This document shows positions 15,370 through 27,591 of a stretch of 30,498 bases of DNA, piece by piece (position 1 is the stretch's first letter; the number at the start of each line of letters is the position of its first letter). The notes beneath the pieces are model-generated. The model saw only the letters and a list, made by a program, of their open reading frames with translations, was not told where the DNA came from and did not search any database. A program made the translations under genes and the position numbers. The DNA comes from a virus, in the IMG/VR virus record IMGVR_UViG_3300044846_000294, positions 1 through 30,498 of that record; one strand, written 5' to 3'.

Positions 15370-17142
15370 ATGACCCTTAGAATTAAAGATCTGACCGTTA
15401 AAAATTTTATGAGTGTGGGTAACACCACGCAAGCAGTAAACTTTGATAGACAAGACCTTACATTGGTGCTTGGGGAAAATATGGACCTGGGCGGCGACGA
15501 CTCAGGTGCTCGTAACGGTACAGGTAAGACTACTATTATTAATGCATTAAGCTATGCATTTTATGGTACTGCACTAACAAATATTAAAAAAGATAACTTG
15601 ATCAATAAAACCAATCAAAAAAATATGTTGGTCACAATTGATTTTGAAAAAGATGGACAAAATTATAGAATCGAGCGCGGGCGCAAACCTGGTATTATGA
15701 GATTCTGGATCGGCGAGAACGAAAAAGAAATCACCGACGATGCCCAGGGCGATAGCCGAGAAACACAGTCGGACATTGAGCGTATGTTGGGTATGAGCCA
15801 CGATATGTTTAAACATATTGTAGCATTAAACACTTATACTGAGCCGTTTTTAAGTCTGCGGGCAAATGATCAGCGTACTATAATTGAACAATTACTGGGC
15901 ATTACCTTGCTCAGTGAAAAAGCAGAAACGCTTAAAGAGCAGGCAAAAGAAACCAAAGATGCTATTACTGCTGAAGAATTTCGAATTAAAGCAGTTACTG
16001 ATGCTAATCGCAGAATTGAAGAACAAATTGAAGGACTAAAGCGCAGACAAACGCTGTGGAAAAACAAATACGCCGAAGATGTTAACAAATTACAAACTGC
16101 ACTCGACCAGCTGTTAAAAATAGATATTGATTCCGAAATCCATTCACACAAAGCTCTTACTGCTTACAATCAAAAGCGTAAAGATATTGCTGACTTAACT
16201 ACTGTACTTAAACGTGCTGAATCCGATGAAGCACGTAATCAAAAGCTGCTAGATAAACTTAAAAAAGAACTTGCAGCATTAGAAGATCATAAGTGTAGCA
16301 CTTGCGGTCAAGACTTACACGACGTTACACACGAGCAATTACTCACAGAAAAAAAATCGGCTATACAAGAAGCTGCACTACAAGCACTTAGCGATAATGG
16401 GCAATGGATGGAGCTAAAAGATGCCCTGCGGGAACTAGGAGAACTTGGCATTCAGCCCAAGGTATTCTATGACAAAGAAGAAGACGCAATTCATCATCGT
16501 AGTACTTTGGCTAATTTACAAACTCAGCTGACTGCAAAAATTGATGAAGAAGATCCTTACGCAGAACAAATTGTAGAAATGCAGGAGCAGGGTGTAGAAG
16601 AAATTTCGTATGACACAATGAACGAACTTGCAGTTATGCGGGATCACCAGGATTTCTTACTTAAATTGCTTACCAACAAAGATAGCTTTATACGTAAACG
16701 TATTATTGATCAAAATCTAAGTTATTTAAATGCTAGATTGGGACAATACTTAGATCGCATAGGACTTCCGCATACAGTAAAGTTCAACAACGACCTAACT
16801 GTAGCCATTACAGAGCTGGGACGTGATTTAGATTTTGACAATCTATCACGCGGCGAACGAAACAGACTTATTCTTTCCTTATCGTGGGCATTCCGTGATG
16901 TGTGGGAAAGTTTATATCAACCAATCAACTTATTGTTTATTGACGAACTGGTCGACAGTGGCATGGATGCCAGTGGTGTTGAAAACAGTCTGGCTATTCT
17001 TAAAAAGATGAGCCGAGATGCTAACAAGAGTATTTGGCTAGTTTCGCACAAAGATGAGTTAGCAGGGCGTGTTAATAACACGTTACACGTGGTTAAAGAA
17101 AACGGATTTACTAGTTACAATACTGATGTCGACATTACTTGA
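15370..17142 (+). CDS. 46: Recombination nuclease ATPase gp46-like (Rad50/SbcC family)
   Basis: This 590-residue ABC-type ATPase (T4 gp46 has 560) has all expected parts. Walker A is GARNGTGKTT with Lys53. Coiled-coil halves flank a zinc hook CSTCGQ (Cys309, Cys312), the ABC signature is LSRGE (492-496), Walker B is LLFIDE (521-526), and a late SHKDEL holds the switch His. It regulates and powers gp47, bringing DNA ends together through the hook. The coiled coil is short, as in other phage forms. AGGA lies about 10 bases before the start. Its end overlaps the start of the radical SAM gene. Confidence 0.96.
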   Translation: MTLRIKDLTVKNFMSVGNTTQAVNFDRQDLTLVLGENMDLGGDDSGARNGTGKTTIINALSYAFYGTALTNIKKDNLINKTNQKNMLVTIDFEKDGQNYRIERGRKPGIMRFWIGENEKEITDDAQGDSRETQSDIERMLGMSHDMFKHIVALNTYTEPFLSLRANDQRTIIEQLLGITLLSEKAETLKEQAKETKDAITAEEFRIKAVTDANRRIEEQIEGLKRRQTLWKNKYAEDVNKLQTALDQLLKIDIDSEIHSHKALTAYNQKRKDIADLTTVLKRAESDEARNQKLLDKLKKELAALEDHKCSTCGQDLHDVTHEQLLTEKKSAIQEAALQALSDNGQWMELKDALRELGELGIQPKVFYDKEEDAIHHRSTLANLQTQLTAKIDEEDPYAEQIVEMQEQGVEEISYDTMNELAVMRDHQDFLLKLLTNKDSFIRKRIIDQNLSYLNARLGQYLDRIGLPHTVKFNNDLTVAITELGRDLDFDNLSRGERNRLILSLSWAFRDVWESLYQPINLLFIDELVDSGMDASGVENSLAILKKMSRDANKSIWLVSHKDELAGRVNNTLHVVKENGFTSYNTDVDIT

Positions 17143-18037
17143 AACTGTTAGAGTATTACACTTAGAGCCAACTGATGTGTGTCAGGCGGCTTGTCCGTTG
17201 TGTGCTCGTGAAACAGATACTTCATTTAATAAGGATGTACAGCACGTACTCACTGTCAACGACATCGAGCGTATTGTAGGAGAGCAGGTAATTTATCGCC
17301 TAGACAAAATGTTTATGTGTGGTAACTACGGCGATCCCGCAGCAAGCCACGAAACATTATCTATTTTTGAATACTTTAGAACAGTAAACAGTAGCATTAC
17401 CCTAGGTATGAATACCAATGGTGGGCTACAAAATAGTGCTTGGTGGGCTAGGCTAGCTGGCATACTATACAAACCTGCAGACTATGTGGTGTTTAGCGTT
17501 GACGGCTTAGAAGACACTAATCATCTATACCGACGCAACGTTAGTTGGGATCGCGTAATGCAAAATGCCAAAGCATTTATCCAAGCCGGTGGCAATGCGC
17601 ACTGGGATATGTTAGTATACAAACACAACGAACATCAGGTTGATGCTTGCGAACAGTTAGCAGCACAGATGGGATTTAAATGGTTTCGTGCCAAAGTTAG
17701 TAAGAGGCCTGCTACTGTGGAATGGCTACAATCCCCTAAGGGATGGGCAAGACCAACGGTCGATTCGGGAGAAGTTAACTGTTTTAGAAATAACGACCAA
17801 AGTTTGTATGTTAGTGCAAAAGGCCTTATACATCCTTGCTGCTGGTTAGGGCACGGTATAGAAACTATAAACAACTTTGATCAAATACAGGCCGGCTGGA
17901 GTACAGATACGTGTAATCCTGTTTGTAAAGAGAACTGTTCCACTAGTAACAACCTGTCAAATTTTACAGGGCAATGGCAAAGAAACGTACCATTGGTAGG
18001 CAATACAAAATATTATAAAGAGTTTAAGGGTGTGTGA
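17126..18037 (+). CDS. Radical SAM protein with SPASM-like C-terminus
   Basis: About 303 residues from an ATG at 17126, which overlaps the gp46 end by 17 bases. A longer frame from 17069 exists but adds only gp46-overlapping residues. The CQAACPLC motif near residue 20 is the CxxxCxxC that holds the [4Fe-4S] cluster cleaving S-adenosylmethionine. The GNYGDP and SVDGLEDTNHLYRR stretches match SAM-binding and barrel strands of the family. The C-terminal third has more Cys (VNCFRN, HPCCW, CNPVCKENC), arranged like the auxiliary-cluster SPASM or twitch domain. Family members modify peptides, nucleosides or proteins. No peptide substrate gene is recognisable beside it, so the substrate is unknown. 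It is an accessory gene in the gp47-gp46 operon. Confidence 0.8.
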   Translation: MSTLLETVRVLHLEPTDVCQAACPLCARETDTSFNKDVQHVLTVNDIERIVGEQVIYRLDKMFMCGNYGDPAASHETLSIFEYFRTVNSSITLGMNTNGGLQNSAWWARLAGILYKPADYVVFSVDGLEDTNHLYRRNVSWDRVMQNAKAFIQAGGNAHWDMLVYKHNEHQVDACEQLAAQMGFKWFRAKVSKRPATVEWLQSPKGWARPTVDSGEVNCFRNNDQSLYVSAKGLIHPCCWLGHGIETINNFDQIQAGWSTDTCNPVCKENCSTSNNLSNFTGQWQRNVPLVGNTKYYKEFKGV

Positions 18038-18049
18038 TAAGTATGTACG

Positions 18050-18478
18050 ATGACATGGTATTACCAAGATACACCCGTAAATGAATTACCCGAAGATTGT
18101 GTTGGTTTTGTTTATTTAATAACCAATACTGTAACTGGACGGAAGTACATAGGTAAAAAATTAGCTAAATTCTCTAAAACAACTTATAAAGTAGTAAAAC
18201 TTAAAAACGGTAACAAAAAACGCAAAAAGATTCGAAGCAAAATTGATTCGGATTGGCAACAATATCATGGCTCAAGTACTGAATTAACTGAAGACATCAA
18301 CCAACAAGGCCCAGACAAATTTAAACGCGAAATACTTTACTATTGCAAAAGCAAGGCAGAATGTAGTTATATTGAAGCCCGCGAGCAGTTTAGTCGTAGA
18401 GTATTAGAATCAGATGATTATTACAACGGACAGATCAGTGTCCGTGTCCATGGCTCTCACATCAAAAACAAAATCTAG
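18050..18478 (+). CDS. Putative GIY-YIG nuclease-type protein
   Basis: This 142-residue protein starts 12 bases after the radical SAM gene. Residues 19-36 read GFVYLITNTVTGRKYIGKK, the GIY-YIG pattern, followed by the basic stretch KNGNKKRKKIRSK and WQQYHGSSTELTED, which suits the family's second half. A Glu in SYIEAREQF could be the metal ligand. Unlike the other two GIY-YIG genes it has no NUMOD-like DNA-binding repeats, so it may be a resident phage nuclease rather than a homing endonuclease. It is the last gene before the 509-base structured gap. Confidence 0.72.
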   Translation: MTWYYQDTPVNELPEDCVGFVYLITNTVTGRKYIGKKLAKFSKTTYKVVKLKNGNKKRKKIRSKIDSDWQQYHGSSTELTEDINQQGPDKFKREILYYCKSKAECSYIEAREQFSRRVLESDDYYNGQISVRVHGSHIKNKI

Positions 18479-18480
18479 TC

Positions 18481-18890
18481 TCAGACACCCCGTCTATCTT
18501 AATAGAAAACAGTATTTGACTTGCACAGGTTACGACATCGTGTGCCCAAGATAACCGGCTTAACTGCACGGGGACGGAAGACTCTTCGCTGTAAAGAGCA
18601 CTCAGCAACTATCCTTAACAGGACGTAGATTGGATATGCCTACATACAACCAGTTTTGCTGTTTGAACAAAAATAGATAACCAAGGCTAAAAGATGCGGC
18701 TCTGATGAAAAAGACACAACCGCAGCGTGTATAACAAGCTAACTTTTGTATATGCACGTACCGTCGTATAAAGGCTAGGGTAGAGGTACAGGACGACCGC
18801 CTCTGAACAGTATTGTTGACCCTTTAAGTTAGTGATTGTGCTACTCGGATGATGTACTCAATTTGATCTTTGCCCTTTGCGGGCAAAGTA
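18481..18890 (+). ncRNA. Candidate large structured RNA between convergent genes
   Basis: The 509-base gap 18479-18987 has no convincing gene but is full of complementary segments. Examples: CCCCGT (18488-18493) with ACGGGG (18568-18573); TATCTT (18495-18500) with AAGATA (18548-18553); a GCACA/TGTGC hairpin (18523-18545); TGCGG (18695-18699) with CCGCA (18720-18724); a 13-14 bp hairpin (18725-18759); a three-way junction closed by AGGGT (18777-18781) and ACCCT (18819-18823); and an 8-bp hairpin (18868-18888). Three G-U wobbles in the long hairpin pair only on the plus strand, supporting this orientation, in line with read-through from the upstream operon. Phage-encoded large RNAs such as GOLLD and ROOL are precedents, but I cannot assign a family. 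Boundaries are approximate and the fold is inferred by eye. Confidence 0.55.
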
Positions 18891-18935
18891 TGACTGATTT
18901 ATCTGGATGATATACAAAAACAATAATTAAAAAAG

Positions 18936-18979
18936 ATTGATGAGCGTTAGCGATATCAATAGATGAACGTAGTTCATCT
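18936..18979. other. Paired stem-loops between convergent genes
   Basis: ATTGAT (18936-18941) pairs with ATCAAT (18955-18960). Immediately after, AGATGAAC (18961-18968) pairs with GTTCATCT (18972-18979) around a 3-base loop, an 8-bp perfect stem. The second stem ends 9 bases from the stop of the minus-strand 72-residue gene. Neither strand shows a long T-run after a stem, so a canonical terminator is not supported. The stems may protect message ends or stop opposing transcription. Confidence 0.45.
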
Positions 18980-18987
18980 TAACAGTA

Positions 18988-19206
18988 TTAAAAGAATGGC
19001 ATCCCAGACTTTTCAGCAGTTTCCAAATTACTTTCTATAATCTTATTGATAATACGCCTATCATCATATGATAACATCACTGCATCTTCGTATGAAATGC
19101 TACCGCGCATATACCAGCACATAGTTAAGAGGTCTTTCTTTAAGGCTTTTGATTCTTTGTCGAAGTTGTCGAGCATTTCGACAATGTCCTCATTGGATGA
19201 TGTCAA
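18988..19206 (-). CDS. Small phage protein downstream of gp26-like gene
   Basis: This 72-residue protein starts at a TTG (19206), five bases after the upstream stop, with AAGG just before it. Sequence features are an acidic helical N-terminus (NEDIVEMLDNFDKESKALKK), a central MCWYMRGSISYEDAVMLSYD and a C-terminal MPFF. The pattern CWYMRGxxSYxDAxxLSxDDRxIIxKxI recurs, in my recollection, in small proteins next to gp26 in aquatic T4-like phages. In the mature phage it may be a hub assembly partner or a chaperone. No specific function can be read. Adjacency and near overlap with the gp26-like gene point to a linked role. Confidence 0.75.
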   Translation of the reverse strand: MTSSNEDIVEMLDNFDKESKALKKDLLTMCWYMRGSISYEDAVMLSYDDRRIINKIIESNLETAEKSGMPFF

Positions 19207-22790: not shown

Positions 22791-23345
22791 ATGGCCGGTT
22801 GTAATTATTACGTGTATCAATACCTTACAGAAAATGGATTACCATATTATGTCGGTAAAGGAAAAAATAACAGAATCAATGTTAATCACAAACACATTGC
22901 ATTACCTACGGTTGAACGTAGAGTTATTGTTAAAGATGGACTTACTAACAAAGAAGCATACGAAATGGAATCGGAATTAATTAAATTCTATGGTTGTAAA
23001 AAACACGGTGGTATATTGGATAATAAAAAGATAACCAGATGGGTAGCAGAACCAGGATGGAAACATTCCGACGATTCTAAGAAAAAAATTAGTGCAGGTA
23101 ATAAAGGTAAAGTGCGGTCCGAAGAAGCAAAAGCAAAATATCGCACACCTAAAACAGCAGAACACGCCGAAAAAATTAGACAAGCAAATCTAGGAAGACC
23201 GTATGATCCGATTAGGGCAGCAAAAATATCAGCTACCCTTAAAGGTAATATACCGTGGAATAAAGGTGTAAAAGGTACTCCTTGGACAGAAGCAAGAAGA
23301 AATGCTTACTTACAAAGTAAAGCATTAAAAGGATTTTCATCATGA
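22791..23345 (+). CDS. GIY-YIG homing endonuclease, free-standing
   Basis: The first 30 residues (CNYYVYQYLTENGLPYYVGKGK) show the GIY-YIG motif in a YVYxY...YYVGKG form, and Glu in AYEMESELIKFYG fits the catalytic Glu position. The C-terminal half has two NUMOD3-like DNA-binding repeats: SDDSKKKISAGNKGK with EEAKAKYR, and AEKIRQANLGR with KISATLKGN and WNKG. This is the typical layout of phage Seg-like homing nucleases, which cut related phage DNA that lacks the gene. It lies between the tape-measure-like and portal genes and overlaps the portal start by 4 bases (ATGA). It has its own short leader with AGAG before the ATG. Confidence 0.87.
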   Translation: MAGCNYYVYQYLTENGLPYYVGKGKNNRINVNHKHIALPTVERRVIVKDGLTNKEAYEMESELIKFYGCKKHGGILDNKKITRWVAEPGWKHSDDSKKKISAGNKGKVRSEEAKAKYRTPKTAEHAEKIRQANLGRPYDPIRAAKISATLKGNIPWNKGVKGTPWTEARRNAYLQSKALKGFSS

Positions 23346-26419: not shown

Positions 26420-27052
26420 ATGGCTTTGTACCTAAAAGAGAGTCTTACATTTGATCGGGCGGGTTTGATCGTTGAATCCGTTGACGAGAATGGCAAGAAG
26501 AGTCTCAAAATGGAAGGGATATTCATTGAAGGAGGCGTGCGTAACGCTAACGAACGTGTATATCCCGTCCACGAAATTGAAAAAGCTGTTAATGCCATCA
26601 ATAAACAAATCAATGGAGGCTACTCTGTCTTAGGCGAAGTAGATCATCCAGATGATTTAAAAATTAATCTCGACCGAGTCAGCCACATGATTGAAAAGAT
26701 GTGGATGGATGGGCCAACAGGTCGCGGCAAACTAAAGATTTTACCAACTCCGATGGGGCAGCTTGTAGAAGCTATGATTACCTCTGGCGTCAAGCTAGGT
26801 GTAAGCAGCCGTGGATCGGGGCAGGTCAACGAAGGTACAGGACACGTTAGTGATTTTGAAATCATTACTGTGGACATTGTAGCACAACCCAGTGCACCAC
26901 ACGCTTATCCAAAAGCAATCTATGAAAGCTTAATGAATATGCAAGGTGGGGCTCAGGTATTTGAAATGGCACGTGAAGCCACGAAAGATCAAAAAGTACA
27001 GAAGTATTTGAAAGAAGCTATGACAGGCTTCATTAAGGATTTGAAGTTATGA
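26420..27052 (+). CDS. 21: Prohead protease gp21-like
   Basis: This 210-residue protein is close in size to T4 gp21 (212), a serine protease that cleaves the scaffold and trims the capsid protein before DNA packaging. GEVDHPDDLKINLDRVSHMI carries the catalytic His76. GVKLGVSSRGSGQV holds the nucleophile Ser (129 or 130), followed by VSDFEIITVDIVAQPSAP with candidate third-residue Asp. The fold resembles herpesvirus proteases. It follows the gp68-like gene after 18 bases with an AGGGAA ribosome site. Its stop overlaps the GIY-YIG gene start by 4 bases. Confidence 0.95.
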   Translation: MALYLKESLTFDRAGLIVESVDENGKKSLKMEGIFIEGGVRNANERVYPVHEIEKAVNAINKQINGGYSVLGEVDHPDDLKINLDRVSHMIEKMWMDGPTGRGKLKILPTPMGQLVEAMITSGVKLGVSSRGSGQVNEGTGHVSDFEIITVDIVAQPSAPHAYPKAIYESLMNMQGGAQVFEMAREATKDQKVQKYLKEAMTGFIKDLKL

Positions 27053-27591
27053 CAATAGCGTATGTGTACAAATGGACTCATTTACCTACAATGATGTGGT
27101 ATGTTGGTTCACGCACAGCTAAGAATTGTCATCCTAATGATGGATATATTTGCACTAGCAGATACGTTAAGCCGTTAATTCTAGAGTCTATAGATCAATG
27201 GCATCAAGAAATTATTGCAACTGGTTCAATAAAAGATATGATCAAATTTGAAACAGAAATCTTACAACTTTTTGATGCTAAACACGATCCTAGAAGTTTT
27301 AATAAACATAATGGTGATGGTAAATTTAGTGTTGCAGGTAAAAAAATAGGACCACAAAGTCAGCAGCATAAAGCTAACTTGAGCGAATCTAAAAAAGGTC
27401 GTGTGGCTTGGAACAAAGGATTGTCTGGCGATACAAGATGTAAAAGGTCGGATGATACAAAAAGAGCAATTGGTTTAGCACGTACAGGAATAATTATGGA
27501 CGAGCAAACTAAAGCAAAAATCTCTCTTACTGAAAAGAGAACGAAACAATCAATAAAAATGATTAATCGAAACACAAAAGGAGAATACTAA
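27049..27591 (+). CDS. GIY-YIG homing endonuclease between gp21 and gp22
   Basis: The N-terminus AYVYKWTHLPTMMWYVGSRT is a GIY-YIG form (YVYKW...WYVGSRT), and FETEILQLFDAK holds a Glu at the catalytic place. The second half (QHKANLSESKKGRVAWNKGL, then SDDTKRAIGLARTG and EQTKAKISLTEKRT) has NUMOD-type repeats that bind DNA. This is a second homing nuclease, little like the one at 22791-23345. It starts at an ATGA overlap with gp21 and ends at a TAATG overlap with gp22, so it is fused seamlessly into the head operon. A GGAG-containing site just before its stop serves gp22. Confidence 0.86.
   Translation: MTIAYVYKWTHLPTMMWYVGSRTAKNCHPNDGYICTSRYVKPLILESIDQWHQEIIATGSIKDMIKFETEILQLFDAKHDPRSFNKHNGDGKFSVAGKKIGPQSQQHKANLSESKKGRVAWNKGLSGDTRCKRSDDTKRAIGLARTGIIMDEQTKAKISLTEKRTKQSIKMINRNTKGEY

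Follow-up and report, generated by a model that had tools for sequence, protein, structure and literature searches.

A large plus-strand RNA with two matched heptamers, shared by T4-like phages and Polynucleobacter islands, has the Rfam family Polynucleobacter-1 as its 5' domain

A 509-base gap between convergent genes of a T4-like phage is, judging by comparison with its homologues, a genuine feature that encodes a structured RNA on the plus strand and is not a product of chance. The RNA is much larger and stranger than the Rfam entry that it matches, and it carries a clear and testable anomaly, namely two heptamers (R1 and R2) that vary from phage to phage yet match each other within each RNA. 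An earlier inspection of the DNA alone (hereafter the sequence-only reading) had proposed a large structured noncoding RNA on this strand, and covariation and noncoding tests now agree on it.

The window, i.e. the whole stretch of DNA analysed here, is a 30,498-nt (30.5-kb) viral contig with T4-type genes for a baseplate wedge, late sigma factor, SbcC/D (gp46/47), portal, head protease and major head protein. The gap (18479-18987) is bounded on the left by a GIY-YIG gene on the plus strand and on the right, on the opposite strand, by an unassigned 72-aa ORF (18988-19206, minus) that is accompanied by a T4 baseplate-type gene. The wider surroundings include a radical-SAM type protein (phrog_21308; 17069-18037) directly upstream of the GIY-YIG gene and two further GIY-YIG type genes (phrog_314 homing endonuclease), one before the portal gene (22791-23345) and one after the head protease gene (27049-27591). 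The main features of the locus are:

18050 to 18478, plus strand: upstream GIY-YIG gene, SegE-like (PF19835, 3e-34), the fixed neighbour of the RNA
18518 to 18664, plus strand: 5' domain, Rfam RF01718 Polynucleobacter-1 (97.9 bits against a gathering cut-off of 37; full model, 1-141)
18505 to 18982, plus strand: proposed full-length structured RNA, ends approximate, from whole-gap nhmmer matches and tree-null covariation (homologues can be aligned over about 18508-18985)

Polynucleobacter-1 was proposed in 2010 from Burkholderiales and fresh-water or estuary sequences (Weinberg et al. 2010, PMC2864571) and is listed in Table 1 of that paper as RNA 'y', cis-reg 'y' and switch '?', i.e. a probable RNA, probably cis-regulatory and ambiguous as a riboswitch; we found no other literature naming it. 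The 5' 147 nt of the RNA match the full model, and the freshwater and Burkholderiales setting is common to both. However, the published model has 141 positions and the RNA described here runs about 300–320 nt further 3', a pseudoknot of the leader (PKa, below) is absent from the structure line of the published alignment, and the element thought to be cis-regulatory in 2010 has T4-like phages as its main carriers here. When the whole gap is used as an nhmmer query, more than 100 phage loci align, most of them from position ~30–40 to ~500–505 of 509, which gives an RNA of ~450–500 nt of which the RF01718 model covers just the 5' third. An Rfam search, which had been proposed as a check that could undo the finding, thus had a divided outcome: RF01718 is the sole Rfam match in the window and explains 147 of the 509 gap bases, and the remaining bases match no family. 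The suggestion that the RNA is a member of a known giant family or a new class also needs revision on both sides, given that no giant family matches it and that 'new class' overstates the case of the window copy, whose 5' domain belongs to RF01718; what is new, at the level of sequence and predicted structure, is the full-length architecture together with two sister types that have no Rfam match at all.

No coding signal was found in the gap, either in the stop-free frames of 60 homologues or in the spacing of conserved motifs. The longest stop-free plus-strand frame averages 53.5 aa in the homologues and 53.6 aa after shuffling, in line with the earlier remark that the gap has no clear ORF, and the spacing between conserved motifs is not preserved modulo 3. 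The minimum free energy of the gap is weakly unusual (z of −1.74 on the plus and −0.89 on the minus strand). The plus strand had been chosen from G-U pairs in a single hairpin, and the same preference holds family-wide: conserved pairs comprise 83 G-U cells and 21 A-C cells, which indicates that it is the RNA of one strand that is under selection.

Covariation was assessed on 60 distinct sequences of the window-like form (type A) with an R-scape-like script of our own and a tree-preserving null, at E<0.05. Twenty column pairs pass this threshold: 14 canonical pairs, six of which lie outside RF01718, 2 neighbour effects in P4 and 4 pairs that reflect identity between the heptamers. The compensatory changes expected of a structured RNA are therefore present in the homologues, and they back at least ten helices and three pseudoknots. 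After correction of the register of P1 and P2, the named helices are paired in 84–100% of type A sequences. In the 3' domain 94.5% of cells are paired, with 130 double changes against 30.9 in shuffled alignments and at most 19 when the partners are slid. The elements, with percentages referring to type A, are:

18509 to 18592, plus strand: pseudoknot PKa, 5' leader 18509-18512 with P3 loop 18589-18592 (90% paired)
18580 to 18599, plus strand: P3 hairpin (98% paired; pairs 18580-18599 and 18585-18595 significant)
18603 to 18661, plus strand: P4 (18603-18607/18657-18661), closing P5 and P6 (100% paired; 18607-18657 E 6e-5)
18696 to 18723, plus strand: P7 hairpin, GCGG/CCGC (84% paired; 18697-18722 E 0.014)
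18725 to 18758, plus strand: P8 long hairpin (at least 9 bp in 60/60 homologues, 51 distinct arms)
18740 to 18831, plus strand: pseudoknot PKc, P8 loop 18740-18745 with 18826-18831 (97.8% paired)
18763 to 18797, plus strand: pseudoknot PKb, 18763-18767 with 18793-18797 in the P10 loop (98% paired; 18765-18795 E 0.022)
18777 to 18823, plus strand: P9 (18777-18780/18820-18823), enclosing P10 (18783-18786/18800-18803) (18777-18823 E 7e-6)
18847 to 18853, plus strand: heptamer R1, GGATGAT, in repeat module 1 (GUGAC..NNACUC-R1-G)
18868 to 18888, plus strand: P11 hairpin, between the repeat modules (95% paired)
18905 to 18911, plus strand: heptamer R2, GGATGAT, in repeat module 2 (GUGAC..NNAUCU-R2-A)
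18936 to 18960, plus strand: P12, a stem-GAG..CGA-stem hairpin read from the sequence, its motif common to types A, D and E
18961 to 18979, plus strand: P13, 3' terminal hairpin (AGATGAAC GTA GTTCATCT), a perfect arm of at least 7 bp after R2 in 101/106 loci

All three pseudoknots change in a compensatory manner. PKa has a significant pair (18511-18590, E 0.035) and recurs in the related types D and E, in which leaders CTACTG, CTACCG or CTACGG match loops CAGTAG, CGGTAG or CCGTAG (23/24 complementary); PKb occurs in versions such as GTTGT/ACAAC, GTCGT/ACGAC and GTCAT/ATGAC; and PKc shows double compensatory changes at 6/6 pairs. Both sides also change at all 4 pairs of P9. The complementary segments named in the sequence-only reading lie where it had placed them and differ in their conservation. 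Its 13–14 bp hairpin (18725-18738/18745-18758) corresponds to P8 and forms in every homologue, with a mean of −12.0 kcal/mol against −4.1 when arms are swapped, and the inner pairs of TGCGG/CCGCA (18695-18699/18720-18724) are conserved with compensatory changes. The stems CCCCGT/ACGGGG (37/130 cells paired) and TATCTT/AAGATA (99/278) lack such conservation and probably arose by chance.

P13 and its homologues are nearly palindromic and covary freely, with 43 distinct stems. A U-run follows in just 12 of 106 loci, and no clear intrinsic terminator was found at the RNA 3' end in these 106 loci. Instead of a terminator, P13 may therefore be an element for dimerisation or protection. Near the 3' end there is also a hammerhead-like UGAUGAG..CGAAA string, which was dropped as a candidate, as its flanks simply pair with each other.

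The anomaly lies in the 3' domain. The stretch from P9/PKc to the 3' end holds the module GUGAC-N(5-9)-NNAYYY-R twice, with P11 between the copies, and the heptamers in them are identical in 60/60 type A sequences, though four of the seven columns vary between phages and chance agreement at these columns would be about 31, 52, 30 and 31 of 60. Identity pairs 18847-18905, 18851-18909 and 18853-18911 are significant against the tree null (E 7e-4 to 7e-3). The heptamer is constrained, with A at position 6, and the flanks differ between the copies (CUC vs UCU before the heptamer and mostly G vs A after it in type A). Type B shows the same identity in 19/19 sequences with five different heptamers, and matching repeats also occur in type D (11) and type E (9), with cores such as GTCAAG, AGCGAAAG and GAGAAAG, the shorter shared strings in these two types being individually weak against shuffles.

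Complements of the heptamer gave chance matches only in cis, within the RNA, from −420 to +230 and within ±3 kb, and pairing in cis does not account for the identity. In four phage records (106–160 kb) the phages' own heptamers did no better than those of other phages; the own sites of one record (G009) were not recovered, and it serves as a control only. From the matched sequences we infer that one trans-acting partner recognises both heptamer sites, and given the lack of a cis complement and of any excess in the long phage records, this partner may not be a nucleic acid. CsrA-type GGA sites were considered and dropped, several heptamers having no GGA.

Viral contigs were gathered in two ways, by the 5'-domain motif and by the GIY-YIG protein, the latter without reference to the RNA. 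The best 80 matches to this protein (70–85% identity) represent one phage group and not all T4-like phages. Downstream sequence of about 350 nt or more is present in 69 of them, and 69/69 carry the RNA or a variant; in 64 the RNA core lies 0.2–2 kb downstream of the GIY-YIG gene, even past an inserted gene, and the other 5 are of type C. The carriers are uncultured, mostly freshwater T4-like phages, and whole-record searches found no phage contig with more than one RF01718 copy. Type D is phage-borne and shares the RF01718 domain with type A, and type E is bacterial. Type B has a different 5' half without Rfam match and, like type C, shares its 3' domain with type A. Type C (L200:3600-4060, L187:6700-7170, L126, L144 and L197) is without the core hairpin or an Rfam match, keeps matched heptamers (ACATGAA) and the 3' end, and may by its sequence be a separate RNA class; no Rfam family reaches an E of 1 in types B or C. 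A covariance model of the type A 3' domain, built from 46 sequences, matches type B at E 1e-8 to 1e-18, type D at 1e-4 to 1e-14 and type C at 0.001 to 0.03. Type E is matched weakly, at E 0.4–3.2 where matched at all, and its homology is based on the RF01718 5' domain (up to 104 bits) and collinear motifs. When the window RNA and types A, B and D were compared by BLASTN with 50,697 phage records, no match was obtained, i.e. no cultured phage in this collection carries the RNA by BLASTN, and type E had no match in plasmids. The 3' domain is absent from Melnitz, ACP17 and V45v66, phages with related GIY-YIG genes. No recognisable promoter was found upstream of the RNA in phages, and the late promoter TATAAATA was present in 0/67.

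Of 186 Polynucleobacter genomes, 20 carry the RNA as well, 19 of them with a score above the RF01718 cut-off; MWH-HuK1 is one strain with the island. The bacterial carriers further include other Burkholderiales bins and two otherwise-labelled MAGs that may be misbinned. In the four island regions that were read, an integrase, an AAA+ homologue of T4-type phage clamp loaders (phrog_168, 5e-20) and a 188-aa tyrosine recombinase recur and no capsid gene was recognised. DUF6641 is divergent from the RNA in 12/12 bacterial loci examined, and no relatives of it were found in viral contigs. Integrase-bearing Polynucleobacter islands with the clamp-loader homologue, the small tyrosine recombinase and DUF6641 are seen at L229:2181-8997, L231:3068-9947 and L228:282-9992, and in L204, L209 and L202 a second conserved, apparently structured element of ~200 nt (GGGTATAGGTAGAAAATCA...GGGCTTATAAATAC) follows directly downstream of the RNA. 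A CTAAATAA or ATAAATAA string stands upstream of the leader in 9/9 of the type E loci first fetched; these strings resemble motifs that precede late genes of the window, which suggests that the CTAAATAA-like string is a late-promoter motif. Gene content, this motif and the patchy distribution together suggest that the islands are satellites of T4-like phages. Like phage satellites such as PLE and PICI, these putative satellites, described here from their gene content, are integrase islands that have phage-type replication genes, in this case along with the phage RNA, and no recognised capsid genes.

A DNA-level element, such as a replication origin, packaging signal or recombination site, could also account for matched repeats, by strand pairing or recombination. 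The repeats are direct, and with fixed flanks around identical 7-bp cores they look similar to recombination overlap sequences; the islands have the same element beside the tyrosine recombinase and clamp-loader homologue. However, the excess of G-U over A-C in stems points to selection on a single strand as RNA, the heptamers are constrained and not free, and recombination between R1 and R2 would delete a conserved hairpin, so this explanation is unlikely. Functionless concerted evolution of a tandem duplication is another candidate explanation of the identity, and the two modules (GUGAC..NNAYYY-R) are clearly duplicates in the alignments. Gene conversion tracts would nevertheless not stop 60 times at the CTC/TCT and G/A differences that persist beside identical heptamers; because the identity ends at these fixed flanking differences we reject gene conversion, and its probability is very small.

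The 2010 classing of Polynucleobacter-1 as cis-regulatory (PMC2864571), provisional and outside the model itself, would make the RNA a 5' UTR or riboswitch. It is hard to reconcile with the gene order, in which the upstream gene lies on the same strand and the next gene downstream is convergent in 57/83 phage loci, which argues against a 5' UTR. Where a gene has been inserted the RNA stays behind different genes, at offsets of 1.0–2.0 kb from the GIY-YIG gene, and conserved RNA extends about 300 nt beyond the Rfam model; a cis-regulatory role is accordingly improbable. Least credible is a divergent GOLLD, ROOL, OLE, HEARO, tmRNA or self-splicing intron. GOLLD and ROOL are similar in size, pseudoknots and phage or prophage-like setting (PMC12286853), and the RNA has the traits of large phage-borne structured RNAs, being >400 nt long with several covarying pseudoknots in phage genomes. 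Like GOLLD it has a conserved 3' and a variable 5' part, and like ROOL it has no known protein partner. However, it is shorter than GOLLD and lies beside a GIY-YIG gene and not tRNA arrays, and its neighbourhood differs from that of ROOL. ARAGORN finds no tRNA and no tmRNA in the 30,498-nt window, so the tRNA-island location typical of GOLLD and ROOL is not seen. The membership in GOLLD, ROOL or HEARO that had been raised fails, as no covariance model other than RF01718 matches the window region or the variants at E<=1, including those of OLE and group I/II introns, apart from one sub-threshold chance match elsewhere.

We consider it somewhat more probable than the opposite that this is a free-standing plus-strand phage RNA that acts as a trans-acting scaffold for one phage-specific partner at the two heptamers. 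An RNA of ~450–500 nt would probably be made by read-through from, or processing of, the GIY-YIG transcript, and its folded helices would hold R1 and R2, identical and single-stranded, each behind a GUGAC element. Both heptamers would then be bound by a single phage-specific partner, either a protein or a nucleic acid, that differs between phages, and the island copies would probably act on this same step in a T4-like helper phage, taking advantage of it or disturbing it. A bolder extension, which we regard as possible but doubtful, is a new phage-RNA superfamily with RF01718 as one of its 5' domains, forming a bivalent device whose heptamers co-evolve with the partner, while the islands encode a counterfeit that has its own heptamer and serves to block the phage or to take advantage of it.

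An Rfam orphan of 141 nt, formerly regarded as a cis-regulator, becomes the 5' domain of a large RNA retained by all examined members of one T4-like phage group. Two related RNA types without Rfam match are added, and a phage and a bacterial island are linked by a common RNA. The strictly matched yet variable heptamers provide a testable signature of a co-evolving partner, and since the islands are present in cultivated Polynucleobacter strains, the function of the RNA is accessible at the bench.
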